NCBI GenBank assembly: GCA_027314845.1
Contig: DAHVAA010000089.1
Coordinates: 1-6,672 of the forward strand
Origin: Thermoplasmata archaeon
GTDB taxonomy: Archaea > Thermoplasmatota > Thermoplasmata > UBA184
Length of the DNA: 6,672 nucleotides
Reading direction: 5' to 3'
Positions within the stretch are counted from its first letter, which is position 1. Every line of letters starts with the position of its first letter. The notes beneath the pieces are model-generated. The model did no database searches, was not told the origin of the DNA, and was given only the letters and a program-made list of their open reading frames with translations. The position numbers and the translations under genes were made by a program. Positions 1,794-6,672 of the stretch are shown here, in pieces.

Positions 1794-2468
1794 CTAAGGG
1801 AGGGCGGGAGGCAACGGAATCTTAAGGGCCTTCAGGCGTTTATTAATTTCGTCCTCGGTGAGTTCGCGATACTCCTTCGGGGAGATGATGTGGACGAGGT
1901 AGCCGTCGCCGCTCGCGCTGTCGCGCTTCATCGCCGCGGTCAGGCCCCGAAGGGCGAGGTCGACCCCGTCGGCGGTTGACATGTCCCGGGAGTAGCCTTC
2001 CTCGAGGAGACCGTAGGCGAAGTACGACCCGGAGCCGACCGACACGAACCGGTCCTCGATACAGCCGCCGGCCGGGTCGACCGAGAAGACATGGCTGCCC
2101 TTCCCGTCCACTCCGCCCAGGATCAACCAGGCGTAGTAGGGGTAGAACCGGTTCCCGTTCAGGATGTTCGCGAGCAGCGTCGCGGCGCCCTCGGCCGTGA
2201 GCGGCGCGCTCCGGCGGAGCCGGTAGAGCGAAACTTCGGCCTTGAGGTACCGGGCGAGCACCTGGGCGTCACCGACCAGCCCCGCGATCGTGATACCGAT
2301 GTTCTGGTCGATCTTGAACAGCTTCTGGGTCTGCTTGTTCGAAATGACATTGCCCGCGGTCGCACGACGCTCGGTGGCGAGGACGACCCCGTCCTTGCAG
2401 ACCATCCCGATCGTCGTCGTGCCCTTCAGAAGGCGCTCCTCGTCGGACGCGCTGATGACGCTCTGCAT
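1794..2468 (-). CDS. psmB: Archaeal 20S proteasome beta subunit
   Basis: This 224-residue protein forms the proteolytic inner rings of the 20S proteasome. It starts with a short 16-residue propeptide ([16 protein letters not shown]). Autocleavage at G16/T17 would expose the catalytic N-terminal threonine (mature sequence TTTIG). Other active-site positions are visible: E33 (mature 17), K49 (mature 33) and the RD183SASG motif. The core [12 protein letters not shown] and the GSGS turn are typical of the family and close to the Thermoplasma protein. The start is fixed by the ATG at 2468-2466, with a GGAGG ribosome-binding site 7 nt upstream. A longer reading frame upstream is open, but it would run through the promoter. 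The stop is TAG (1796-1794). Reading through it would continue to a TGA at 1487-1485, inside fttA, so here TAG looks like a true stop. The alpha subunit and the regulatory ATPase are not in the window. Confidence 0.97.
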
Positions 2469-2665: not shown

Positions 2666-3865
2666 ATGCGGAAACACGATGTTGTCGTGGTCGGAGCCGG
2701 TCTCGCCGGACAGCGCGCCGCCCTCGCGGCCATTGAGGCGGGGTCCGACGTGGCGATCGTGTCGAAGTTGCATCCGTTGCGCTCGCACTCGGGGGCCGCG
2801 CAGGGCGGGATCAACGCCGCGGTCGGCGCGGAGGACTCGGTCGACACGCACATCTACGATACGGTGAAGGGCTCCGACTATCTCGGAGACCAGGACGCGA
2901 TCGAGTTCTTCTGCCGGGAAGCCGGCCCGACCGTCGTCGAGATGGAACACTTCGGCACGATCTTCAGTCGCGCGCCGGACGGAGCGCTCGCGCGCCGCGC
3001 GTTCGGAGGCGCCGGATTCCCGCGAACGATCTACGCCGCCGACCGCACGGGGCTCGCGCTGCTGCAGGGCCTGTGGGAGCGCCTCGGGACGGAGCGTTTC
3101 ACGCTCTACGAGGAGTGGGAGTTGACCGGCCTCGTGGTCCGGGACAATCGGGTCCAGGGCATCGTGGCCCTCGACCGCAAGCGCGGTGAGTTCGAGGGGA
3201 TCGCCGCGAAGGCGGTCGTCCTGGCGACGGGACCGGCCGGTCGCGTCTACGGCCGAACCACGAACGCCCACAGCTGCACGGGCGACGGTCTCGCGGCCGC
3301 GTACTCGGCCGGAGCGTTCCTCAAGGACATGGAGTTCGTCCAGTTCCATCCGACCGCGCTCCTCGAGTCGAGCATTCTCATCACCGAGGGCGCCCGCGGT
3401 GAGGGCGGCTTCCTCCGGAACGCGACCGGCGACCGGTTCATGTCGAAGTATGCGCCGCACGTCCTCGAGCTCGCCTCGCGCGATGTGGTGTCTCGGGCGA
3501 TCGTGACGGAGGTGAACGAGGGGCGAGGGTTCACGGGGCCGTACGGCGGCTTCGTCCACCTCGAGCTGATGCACCTCGGGCGGGAGAAGGTCGAGAGCCG
3601 GCTCCAGGAGATCTGCGACTACTGCCGGCACTTCGCCGGGATCGACCCGGTCACGGAAGCGATCCCGGTCTATCCGGCCCAGCACTACATGATGGGGGGC
3701 ATCGGCACGAACATCGAAGGCGCAACGAGCCTTCCGGGGCTCTTCGCGGCCGGCGAGGCCGCGTGCGTCTCCATCCACGGCGCGAACCGCCTCGGCGGGA
3801 ATTCCCTGCTCGAGACCCTCGTCTTTGGCAAGCAGGCCGGGATCGCGGCGGCCGCCGCCGCGTAG
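2666..3865 (+). CDS. sdhA: Succinate dehydrogenase/fumarate reductase flavoprotein subunit, FAD and catalytic part (up to an in-frame TAG)
   Basis: The 399 residues up to the TAG carry the dinucleotide-binding motif G10-A-G12-L-A-G15, the SH41SGAAQGGI segment with the histidine expected to bind FAD covalently, and the capping domain. By comparison with E. coli SdhA, the catalytic residues are all present: H228 in QFHPTAL, R244 in EGARGEGG, H340 in QHYMMGGI and R375 in [12 protein letters not shown]. The enzyme oxidises succinate to fumarate, or does the reverse, and passes electrons to SdhB. The ATG at 2666 is two codons before the conserved start of the FAD fold and has no ribosome-binding site. 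The protein stops at TAG (3863-3865) in an alanine-rich linker, about 160 residues short of the family. The missing C-terminal domain follows in the same frame, so the natural gene is probably 2666-4348. Alone, this part lacks the C-terminal helical domain that normally completes the flavoprotein. The family is certain; the gene boundary is the open question. Confidence 0.93.
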
Positions 3866-3874
3866 TCGGCGGCC
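3850..3874 (+). repeat. Inverted repeat around the in-frame TAG of sdhA
   Basis: GGCCGCCG (3850-3857) and CGGCGGCC (3867-3874) are perfect inverted copies. They could form an 8-bp all-G:C stem with a 9-nt loop (CCGCGTAGT) that contains the TAG. An alternative register pairs 3854-3860 with 3867-3873 and leaves a 6-nt loop. The left arm is part of a GCC/GCG run encoding alanines, so the repeat may be only a by-product of composition. Any role in stop-codon decoding is speculative. Confidence 0.5.
3863..3865 (+). other. In-frame TAG at codon 400 of sdhA
   Basis: The frame that begins at 2666 meets TAG here and then continues without shift to TGA at 4346-4348. The first codons after it read SAASPELRPIDLDAAT, a plausible linker, and the conserved C-terminal SdhA domain follows. 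The whole frame has 560 codons before the TGA, the usual SdhA length. No ATG, GTG or TTG occurs between the TAG and the ATG at 3977. Possible readings are programmed readthrough or pyrrolysine, a nonsense mutation, a split gene, or a single-base sequence error (for example from GAG, AAG, CAG or TCG). Confidence 0.85.
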
Positions 3875-3976
3875 TCGCCCGAGCTGCGTCCGATCGACCT
3901 CGACGCGGCGACGTCGCCGTACCGCGCCTGGGCGAGCCGGTCGGACGGCGAGGACCCCTCAACGCTTCGGACCGAG

Positions 3977-4348
3977 ATGCAGCAGACGATGGACCGGTAC
4001 GTGGGGATCTACCGCACGGAAGCCGACCTGCTCGAGGGCCTGCGGCGGGTCCGCGCGCTCCAGAAGCGCTTCGCCAACGTGCGCGTGGTCGACCGAGCGA
4101 AGGTGTACAACCTCAACCTTACCGACGCGATCGAGACCGGCTACATGCTCGACCTCGCCGAAGTGATCGTGGTCGGCGCCTACGCACGCCTCGAAAGCCG
4201 GGGTGCCCACTCCCGCATCGACTACCCGAAGCGGGAAGATGCCCACTGGATGCGGCACACCCTCGCCAAGAAGGGTCCGGAAGGACCGGTCCTCTCCTAT
4301 TCCGGGGTCGCCTACACCCGCTGGGAACCGAAGGAGCGTGTCTACTGA
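3977..4348 (+). CDS. sdhA: SdhA C-terminal domain (same frame as sdhA, after the in-frame TAG)
   Basis: From the ATG at 3977 this frame encodes 123 residues of the SdhA/FrdA C-terminal domain. These include the helical part (DRYVGIYRTEADLLEGL) and the very conserved ESRGAHSRIDYPKRED segment followed by W-M-R-H. The similarity starts before this ATG: codons 3866-3976 encode the linker and the TLRTEMQ start of the first helix. A start at 3977 would therefore trim a conserved helix. There is no clear ribosome-binding site before it. I think it is normally the end of the SdhA polypeptide (2666-4348) and not a separate gene. A genuinely split subunit made from this ATG cannot be excluded. The TGA stop overlaps the ATG of sdhB by one base. 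Confidence 0.75.
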   Translation: MQQTMDRYVGIYRTEADLLEGLRRVRALQKRFANVRVVDRAKVYNLNLTDAIETGYMLDLAEVIVVGAYARLESRGAHSRIDYPKREDAHWMRHTLAKKGPEGPVLSYSGVAYTRWEPKERVY

Positions 4349-5319
4349 TGAGCGAAGAGATGGTCTCCGCTACGTTCGAGGTCTACCGACACGACCCGGC
4401 GGCCGGGGCGAAGCCCCGCTACCAGCGGTACACCCTCGACCTCGCCCCGCACACCCCGGTGCTGACCGCCCTCCTGCGGATCCGCGCGGAGGTCGACCCA
4501 TCGCTCACCCTGCGCTACTCCTGTCGGAGCGCGATCTGCGGCTCGTGCGCGATGCAGATCAACTCCAAGAGCCGGCTCGCGTGCGAGACCCACATCGGGC
4601 CCGAGATCGCTCGCCACGGTCGCATCGTGGTCGAGCCGATGCGCAACCAGCCGGTCCTGCGCGACCTGGTGGTCGACCAGGCGCCGTTCTGGCGCCAGTA
4701 CTCGCTCATCGAGCCTCACCTGAAGCTCGACCCCGCGCACCCGATGCCGGCGGACCGGCCGACCTCGATGAGCCCGGAGCAGGTCGATCGTTTCAAGGAG
4801 ACGCCGAGGTGCATCGCCTGCGCGGCCTGCTATTCGGCGTGCCCGGCGGTCGAGGCGGACGCCGGCTTCCCGGGCCCCATGGCGCTCGCGAAGCTCTACC
4901 GGTTCGTGGTCGACCCCCGCGACCAGGCCCATCAGGACCGCCTCGTCCGGATCCAGCCGAACGGTCTGTGGCTCTGCCTGCGCTGCCACCTCTGCACCGA
5001 GTCCTGCCCGAAGGACGTGCGGCCGAGCGAACGGATCCGCGACCTGAAGGAGATGGCGATCGCGGCGCAGGGCGCGACGGAGAACGGCTCTCGCCATGCC
5101 GTCGGCTTCAAGGACAACATCTCGGACGCCGGCCTGTTGAACGAGATGCGGCTCGTCCGACAGACGTACGGCCTGCTCGGCATGCTCGGGCAGGTGCGCC
5201 AGGGTCTGCGGATCGTCCGGAAGAAGCGCGAGGTCATGCGCAAGCCGCACCGGATCCAGAACGTGGAGGAGGTCCGGAAGATCTACGAGGCCCTGGAGGA
5301 GAAGGAGGCGCCTCCGTGA
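4348..5319 (+). CDS. sdhB: Succinate dehydrogenase iron-sulfur subunit with an extra cluster cysteine
   Basis: This 323-residue protein carries electrons from SdhA. An N-terminal plant-ferredoxin-like domain binds [2Fe-2S] through C59, C64, C67 and C79. The alpha-helical ferredoxin domain has C155-C158-C161-C165P and a second set C210-C213-C216-C220P. In E. coli SdhB the second set has no cysteine at the place of C213, and one centre is a [3Fe-4S]. The fourth cysteine predicts a second [4Fe-4S], as described for Sulfolobus SdhB. The protein is about 85 residues longer than E. coli SdhB (238 aa). Its basic, helical C-terminal tail (about residues 250-323) resembles those of HdrC-like and archaeal SdhB proteins. 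The start is the ATG overlapping the sdhA stop (TGATG), with AAGGAG 11 nt upstream (4331-4336). The stop overlaps the sdhE start, so translation is probably coupled along the operon. Confidence 0.95.
   Translation: MSEEMVSATFEVYRHDPAAGAKPRYQRYTLDLAPHTPVLTALLRIRAEVDPSLTLRYSCRSAICGSCAMQINSKSRLACETHIGPEIARHGRIVVEPMRNQPVLRDLVVDQAPFWRQYSLIEPHLKLDPAHPMPADRPTSMSPEQVDRFKETPRCIACAACYSACPAVEADAGFPGPMALAKLYRFVVDPRDQAHQDRLVRIQPNGLWLCLRCHLCTESCPKDVRPSERIRDLKEMAIAAQGATENGSRHAVGFKDNISDAGLLNEMRLVRQTYGLLGMLGQVRQGLRIVRKKREVMRKPHRIQNVEEVRKIYEALEEKEAPP
5302..5315 (+). promoter_or_regulatory. Ribosome-binding site of sdhE inside a palindrome
   Basis: AAGGAGG (5302-5308) is a strong ribosome-binding site 7 nt before the GTG at 5316 and decides this start. 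The bases 5304-5315 (GGAGGCGCCTCC) are a perfect 12-bp palindrome. Folded RNA could hide the site in a short 4-bp stem until ribosomes finishing sdhB open it. Confidence 0.6.
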
Positions 5320-6191
5320 AGCTCGCGTACTACCCCGGCTGCGTCGCCCAGGAGTCGGGGAAGGAGCTCGACATGGCGACCCGCTACGTCGCGAAGTCCC
5401 TCGGGATCGAGCTCGTCGAGTTCCCGAACTTCTCCTGCTGCGGCTCGGGCTTTGTCGACGAGGCGAACGAAGTCCTGAACGTGGCGATCAACGCCCGCAA
5501 CCTCGCGATCGCCGAGCGGGCCGGGCTAAACATCCTCACGATCTGTTCGACGTGCCAGGGGATGCTCTCGCTCGCGAACCTGCGACTGAAGGACCCGGCG
5601 GTGCGCACCCGCGTGGAGACGGCGCTCCGGCCTCTCGGGATGGCCTACACCGGTCGCGTGCAGGTCAAGCACCTCCTTCGGGTCCTCACGGAGGACGTCG
5701 GGCTCGACGCGATCCGGGCGAAGGTCCGCCGTCGCCTCAACGGACTCAAGGTGGGGGCGTTCTACGGTTGCCACCTCCTCCGCCCGGCCGATGAGCTCGG
5801 GTGGGAGAGCGGCGAGGAGCCGCACGCCTTCGAGGACCTCCTCACCGTCCTCGGCGCGACGCCGGTCGAGTACCGCGGCCGCGTCATGTGCTGCGGCTTT
5901 CCGATCCAGTTCGTGAAGGGGGAGACCGCGAGCCGGATCGCCGGCCGCCAGATCCTGGACGCCCGGGCGCACGGCGCGGACGCGATGGCGACCCCGTGCC
6001 CGCTCTGCCACATCTCGCTCGACGCCTACCAAAACCAGGCGGCGAAGGCGGTCGGGCAGCCGCTCGACATGCCGGTCTTCCACCTTCCGCAGGTCGTGGG
6101 CCTCGCCTTCGGTGCCTCGCCGGAGGAGCTCGGGCTGCCGCGCCACCTGGTTCCGACCGATGCCGCGCTCGAGAAGATCGCCGTCCGCTGA
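5316..6191 (+). CDS. sdhE: SdhE: HdrB-like CCG-domain subunit of a non-classical succinate dehydrogenase
   Basis: This 291-residue protein starts at GTG, overlapping the sdhB stop by 4 nt (GTGA). It has two full CCG motifs of the CX(n)CCGX(m)CXXC type: C9...C41-C42-G43...C77-S-T-C80 and C152...C192-C193-G194...C228-P-L-C231. Such motifs bind iron-sulfur clusters in HdrB of heterodisulfide reductase, in TfrB of thiol:fumarate reductase and in SdhE of Sulfolobus. No transmembrane segment is visible. In the Sulfolobus-type enzyme this subunit replaces the haem-binding membrane anchors and is thought to attach the complex to the membrane peripherally and serve the quinone. Its place directly after sdhA and sdhB supports that role here over a true HdrB. 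The name is not related to the bacterial FAD-assembly factor also called SdhE. The electron acceptor (quinone or thiol) cannot be read from the sequence. No SdhF-like small gene follows. Confidence 0.92.
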   Translation: MKLAYYPGCVAQESGKELDMATRYVAKSLGIELVEFPNFSCCGSGFVDEANEVLNVAINARNLAIAERAGLNILTICSTCQGMLSLANLRLKDPAVRTRVETALRPLGMAYTGRVQVKHLLRVLTEDVGLDAIRAKVRRRLNGLKVGAFYGCHLLRPADELGWESGEEPHAFEDLLTVLGATPVEYRGRVMCCGFPIQFVKGETASRIAGRQILDARAHGADAMATPCPLCHISLDAYQNQAAKAVGQPLDMPVFHLPQVVGLAFGASPEELGLPRHLVPTDAALEKIAVR

Positions 6192-6672
6192 TCCGGGGTC
6201 TTCCCCGGACCGCCGCCGCTACGCGAGCGGGACGCCGTGGGAGCCGAAGGTCGGCTACAGCCGGGCGGTGCGGGTCGGCGACCGGGTCCTCGTCTCGGGG
6301 ACGACCGCGACCGGGCCGGACGGACTCCTGATCGGCCGCGACGACCCGTATCGCCAAGCCGTCCAGGCGCTCGACAACATCGAGCGGGCCCTCCGGGCCC
6401 TCGGAAGCGCCCTCGAGGAGGTCGTTCGGCTCCGGGTCTACATCACGGACTTCGCCGACTTTGAGCAGTTCGCGCGTGCGTTCGGCGAGCGGTTCGGAGC
6501 CGTCCGTCCGACCAACACGATGGTCCGGGTCGCGGGCCTGGTCGACCCGGCGATGCGGATCGAGGTCGAGGCGGAAGCGGTCGTCCCTCCGCGCCGCCCG
6601 CGCGCTCGGCTCAGCGCGCGTCGTCCGGCGGCGCGCCGCCCGACTTCAGGGCGCGCCCTCCGGCGCCAGCCG
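6160..6672 (+). CDS. RidA (YjgF/UK114) family protein, no stop inside the window
   Basis: The frame encodes a RidA-fold protein. The conserved part begins at RRRYASGTPWEPKVGYSR and runs through VSGTTATGPDG to VRPTNTMVRVAGLVDP and IEVEAEAVV. This pattern fits the subgroup that starts SG-PWEP-VGYSRAVRVG, not classical RidA. Classical members hydrolyse reactive enamines and imines, using an arginine (R105 in E. coli RidA) to bind the substrate carboxylate. By my alignment that position is N119 here, so the substrate is unknown. The only ATG near the domain is at 6160; it overlaps sdhE by 32 nt, lacks a good ribosome-binding site and adds about 17 arginine- and serine-rich residues. The true start is uncertain. 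The domain should end near 6590, but the frame stays open with an arginine/proline-rich tail to the right edge. That tail may be antisense to a converging gene. A link to the sdh operon is not shown. Confidence 0.75.
   Translation, partial: MPRSRRSPSADPGSSPDRRRYASGTPWEPKVGYSRAVRVGDRVLVSGTTATGPDGLLIGRDDPYRQAVQALDNIERALRALGSALEEVVRLRVYITDFADFEQFARAFGERFGAVRPTNTMVRVAGLVDPAMRIEVEAEAVVPPRRPRARLSARRPAARRPTSGRALRRQP
6192..6209 (+). terminator. Perfect hairpin directly after the sdhE stop
   Basis: TCCGGGG (6192-6198), a TCTT loop and CCCCGGA (6203-6209) form a 7-bp perfect stem that begins at the base after the sdhE TGA. No U-rich tract follows, so it is not a standard intrinsic terminator. It could mark or protect the 3' end of the sdh message. 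It also lies within the RidA frame if that starts at 6160. Its function is unproven. Confidence 0.35.
6611..6672 (-). CDS. Possible C-terminal end of a converging unknown gene
   Basis: On the minus strand a frame enters from the right edge and stops at TGA (6613-6611). Its 19 visible residues end in ALKSGGAPPDDAR, with mostly G/C third positions as in the other genes here. The plus-strand RidA frame over the same bases gives an arginine/proline-rich tail that looks non-natural. This makes a converging gene plausible, but 19 residues are too few to recognise a family. Confidence 0.2.
   Translation of the reverse strand, partial: AGAGGRALKSGGAPPDDAR

Follow-up and report, generated by a model that had tools for sequence, protein, structure and literature searches.

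Does the TAG inside the sdhA gene of this window (the whole 6,672-nucleotide stretch analysed) specify a residue, is it passed over in some other way, or does it simply stop translation in an otherwise ordinary gene? The sdhA frame at 2666..4348 on the plus strand is open except for one internal stop, the TAG at 3863-3865 (codon 400 of 560), and runs on without any other stop to its terminator TGA at 4346-4348, as stated in the preliminary description. The first part (2666..3865; 399 codons, then TAG) encodes the FAD-binding domain, with PF00890 covering residues 5-381 of the product (E 8.5e-103, profile search). The continuation (3866..4348, plus strand) adds 160 residues in the same frame, made up of the linker and the complete Succ_DH_flav_C domain (PF02910, residues 435-560, profile positions 1-130 of 130, E 9.3e-42), so the claim that the C-terminal domain carries on beyond the TAG holds. 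Read through, the product would have the proposed normal length of 560 residues, as do 111 of the 120 listed SdhA proteins; the other nine range from 553 to 588 aa.

In comparison with the SdhA/FrdA flavoprotein family (TIGR01812; PF00890 plus PF02910), the window gene has both domains in a single frame of 560 residues, with sdhB and an sdhE-type gene downstream, but it differs by its single in-frame TAG in the linker between the domains. The N-terminal 399 aa by itself scores 576.4 against the TIGR01812 cut-off of 567.3; as written, sdhA is a broken or interrupted member of this family. Downstream on the same strand, the open sdhB gene for the iron-sulphur subunit (4348..5319; PF13085 and PF13183, TIGR00384 over the cut-off) shares one base with the sdhA stop, and the likewise open sdhE-type gene for a CCG subunit (5316..6191; PF02754, best NCBIfam match NF042965, below its cut-off) overlaps the sdhB stop with its GTG start. 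On the minus strand lies a gene which we take to be psmB (proteasome beta; 1794..2468), ending in a TAG at a stop position common to its relatives; a second gene on the strand opposite to sdhA is presumably a KH/beta-CASP gene (KHbCASP), and the open frame downstream of sdhE (6192-6672) presumably encodes a RidA-type protein. On inspection, no sdhC/D/F-like gene was recognised in the window. A scan of the window for RNA families gave zero matches at the gathering threshold, and tRNA scans found no tRNA gene in the window or in 22 loci around sdhA.

The nearest loci come from metagenome-assembled genomes: first L001 and L043 (the latter recorded as Thermoplasmata), whose SdhA is 91% identical to that of the window, followed by UBA184 (L057) with 78% and Candidatus Lutacidiplasma silvani (L033) with 77%. 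The window genes have a GC content of 65-70%, and the Lutacidiplasma description gives a value of ~69% (PMC9287336). The source is best explained as a GC-rich, Lutacidiplasmatales-like Thermoplasmata archaeon. The L001 entry is titled "bacterium", yet its sdhA, sdhB, sdhE, psmB and KHbCASP are 86-97% identical to those of the window, and it is probably a mislabelled archaeon.

Codon 400 is variable among the relatives. At this position the 120 listed proteins carry Ala (53), Glu (39) or one of nine other residues (the remaining 28), which places the TAG, as judged from the alignment, in a variable linker between the domains and not in a conserved element. In all 63 Thermoplasmata loci compared, codon 400 is an ordinary sense codon, of 17 kinds altogether, including Lys and Arg codons in the two nearest loci, L043 and L001, respectively. 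A TAG conserved at this site, as a pyrrolysine system would lead one to look for, is thus found in none of them. No stop occurs anywhere in the compared sdhA stretch of these 63 loci, three of which run off their contig past codon 400. Among the matches listed for 106 genomes of the order of the nearest relative (G001), none of those close to SdhA contains an internal stop; in this comparison some genomes show a paralogue only, and partial matches may be contig ends. Stops seen among the matches listed in three genomes, all in a paralogue of 38-39% identity, turned out to be terminal stops once read.

The part of the gene behind the TAG still evolves much as in the intact copies. Between the window and L043, dN/dS is 0.058 for residues 1-392 and 0.110 for residues 435-560; for L043 against L001, both intact, the values are 0.055 and 0.112. 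Measured against the more distant L003, the values for residues 1-392 are 0.087 for the window, 0.062 for L043 and 0.059 for L001, and those for residues 435-560 are 0.196, 0.170 and 0.156 in the same order. When the window, L043, L001 and L003 are compared, private amino-acid changes number 8 in the window, 5 in L043 and 7 in L001 for residues 1-392, and 2, 4 and 3, respectively, for residues 435-560. At five columns conserved to at least 95% the window departs from the consensus (332, 478, 493, 509 and 524), and four of these lie behind the TAG; since one to four of the 120 relatives show the same departure at each of the first four columns, leaving 524 as the only one private to the window, we do not count them as decay. 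As far as such small numbers go, the substitution pattern gives no clear sign that the part behind the TAG alone is decaying. The frame, domain and dN/dS data together agree with the preliminary description, according to which there is neither a frameshift nor clear decay on either side and sdhB and sdhE are intact. If there is no clear decay, the TAG should be very recent, or absent from the organism, or bypassed.

How TAG is used elsewhere in this lineage bears on the choice between these possibilities. The psmB gene of the window terminates with TAG; in L001 and L043 the stop sits at the same residue and is TAA. Over the 63 loci, psmB is present in 54, and its 50 visible stops comprise 31 TAG, 11 TAA and 8 TGA codons, 46 of them at one position plus or minus one residue. 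KHbCASP is present in 49 loci; 19 of its 41 visible stops are TAG, and all 41 fall at one position plus or minus one residue. For sdhE, present in 57 loci, TAG ends 27 of 55 visible genes, with varying lengths. As TAG is swapped with other stops at the fixed ends of psmB and KHbCASP, it appears to be an ordinary terminator here, and on this comparative basis TAG would be read as a stop in the lineage of the window too. Six psmB alignments seemed to contain internal stops because they had overrun the terminal stop; the counts given here are corrected for this. The sdhB terminator is TGA in 57 of 57 visible cases; in the window this TGA overlaps the start of sdhE.

Decoding of the TAG as a residue, by pyrrolysine or another amber suppressor, would yield a 560-residue SdhA, and it would be in keeping with the intact downstream frame, which is still under purifying selection. 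A pyrrolysine system is found in the Thermoplasmata-related seventh order of methanogens, according to a report on them (PMC3941956). The window shares with these pyrrolysine-encoding Methanomassiliicoccales the affiliation to Thermoplasmata-related archaea and an in-frame TAG; it differs in that the window and its relatives routinely use TAG as a stop, and in that neither PylS nor PylB exceeds its cut-off in any of the 106 genomes from the order to which G001 belongs, the completeness of these genomes being unstated. The PylS search was positive for its one control, Methanosarcina acetivorans. In the PylB search 4 of 14 controls gave a match and 1 of 14 passed the cut-off. With a looser threshold, weak PylS-like matches appeared in five near genomes (at most 26 bits, compared with a cut-off of 178), and also in 13 of the 14 controls; presumably these are other class II synthetases. 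The genome-wide searches for pyl genes and tRNAs covered relatives of the source species. No CTA anticodon occurs in the tRNAs called for G001 and G002, the two nearest genomes, which argues only weakly against a suppressor, as the called sets are incomplete and about half full. ARAGORN made calls for 25 of 29 tRNA loci in G001 and for 26 of the 30 examined (out of 32) in G002, corresponding to 24 and 25 distinct tRNA genes, one tRNA-Met spanning two overlapping loci in each genome. Several amino acids have no called tRNA in these genomes, with Tyr, Trp and His missing in both, perhaps due to introns. The usual pyrrolysine protein is a methylamine methyltransferase, and SdhA is not one. If UAG were decoded here, natural code expansion would reach a further archaeal order and a core respiratory enzyme; with TAG at codon 400 in none of the 63 loci, we regard such decoding as extremely unlikely. 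The proposal of UAG decoding by pyrrolysine therefore finds no support in the relatives, for which the orthologue alignment and pyl search suggested in the preliminary description returned the very results named there as speaking against it. Programmed readthrough promoted by the local RNA context, put forward alongside pyrrolysine, agrees with the way the same frame carries on past the TAG, but the RNA 3' of it (3860-3975) folds no better than shuffled sequences (z 0.55; of 200 shuffled versions, 145 were equally or more stable), and no stop occurs at codon 400 in any of the 63 loci. We consider it scarcely credible.

A functional split would not need the TAG to be read at all: SdhA would be made as two chains, an FAD part of 399 residues and a C-terminal part of 123 residues started at ATG 3977. 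The TAG lies in the variable linker, where such a break is conceivable, and the downstream ORF (3977..4348, plus strand; 123 codons, no Shine-Dalgarno) starts at the first codon that could serve, since, as had been described, there is no in-frame ATG, GTG or TTG between the TAG and 3977. The ATG had also been said to begin inside a conserved helix. It encodes residue 438, only three residues into the PF02910 domain, so a protein started there would keep nearly all of it. Short C-terminal SdhA proteins are also known from other public contigs, among them a 123-aa protein from a contig of 796 kb. Against a split stand the restart 111 bases beyond the stop, the absence of stop-split copies from the 63 loci, and an anti-Shine-Dalgarno duplex of -3.2 kcal/mol at ATG 3977, compared with -10.1 for sdhB, -10.0 for sdhE and -10.0 for psmB; the value for 3977 is mid-range among 54 internal in-frame ATG/GTG codons. 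The starts of sdhA (-5.5) and KHbCASP (-2.5) form weak duplexes as well, so that the missing Shine-Dalgarno at 3977 is not decisive in this group. Taken together, two functional chains seem very unlikely.

Most probably, and with high confidence on our part, the TAG reflects a nonsense change of one base, isolated to codon 400, in an sdhA that is ordinary in all other respects. The evidence thus favours what the preliminary description named as the simpler alternative, a single-base error or a recent nonsense mutation. As to the origin of the change, we infer one of two things: the mutation arose very recently in the population sampled, or the 6.7-kb metagenomic contig carries a base error or a minority variant. 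With TAG read as a stop in this lineage, the DNA as written would give a truncated 399-residue flavoprotein, and most cells of the species would be expected to carry an intact sdhA copy. Some points weigh against an isolated change. The linker holds only 12 of the 154 one-substitution nonsense routes, so that finding the TAG there is mildly surprising if the change was random; the argument relies on relatives with about 91% identical SdhA and genomes of unstated completeness; and an intact copy of near-identical sequence did not turn up, the closest protein showing 92% identity in a database that consists of 90% cluster representatives only. A slim chance is left to a two-chain SdhA, reached or emerging in this one species, or to an amber suppressor specific to the strain. 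The break would then fall exactly in the tolerant linker, though beyond that position there is little positive support for either. The best reading is an isolated nonsense change of either natural or technical origin, which explains the data except for the mild coincidence of the linker. For practical purposes, the TAG should not be counted as recoding, and the sdhA call deserves a flag for a probable error or a recent lesion.

The search for short C-terminal SdhA proteins admitted only candidates of ~68-215 aa, making all 22 proteins found short by construction; one of them (P0122) is the 123-residue ORF of the window itself, whose longest contig is given as 6672 bases, which suggests that the window is a short contig in its entirety. 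For 13 of the other 21 (P0123-P0143), the longest contig is below 3 kb and contig ends could explain their length; the remaining eight are on longer contigs of 4 to 796 kb, among them P0130 (796 kb), P0135 (53 kb) and P0140 (54 kb), and may reflect contig ends, frameshifts, stops or genuine splits. P0130, found in none of the compared loci, was compared with the SdhA of G049 (799-kb contig), which proved to be a different protein and has no internal stop. P0143 combines PF01638 with the SdhA C-terminal domain PF02910 and is probably a chimera.
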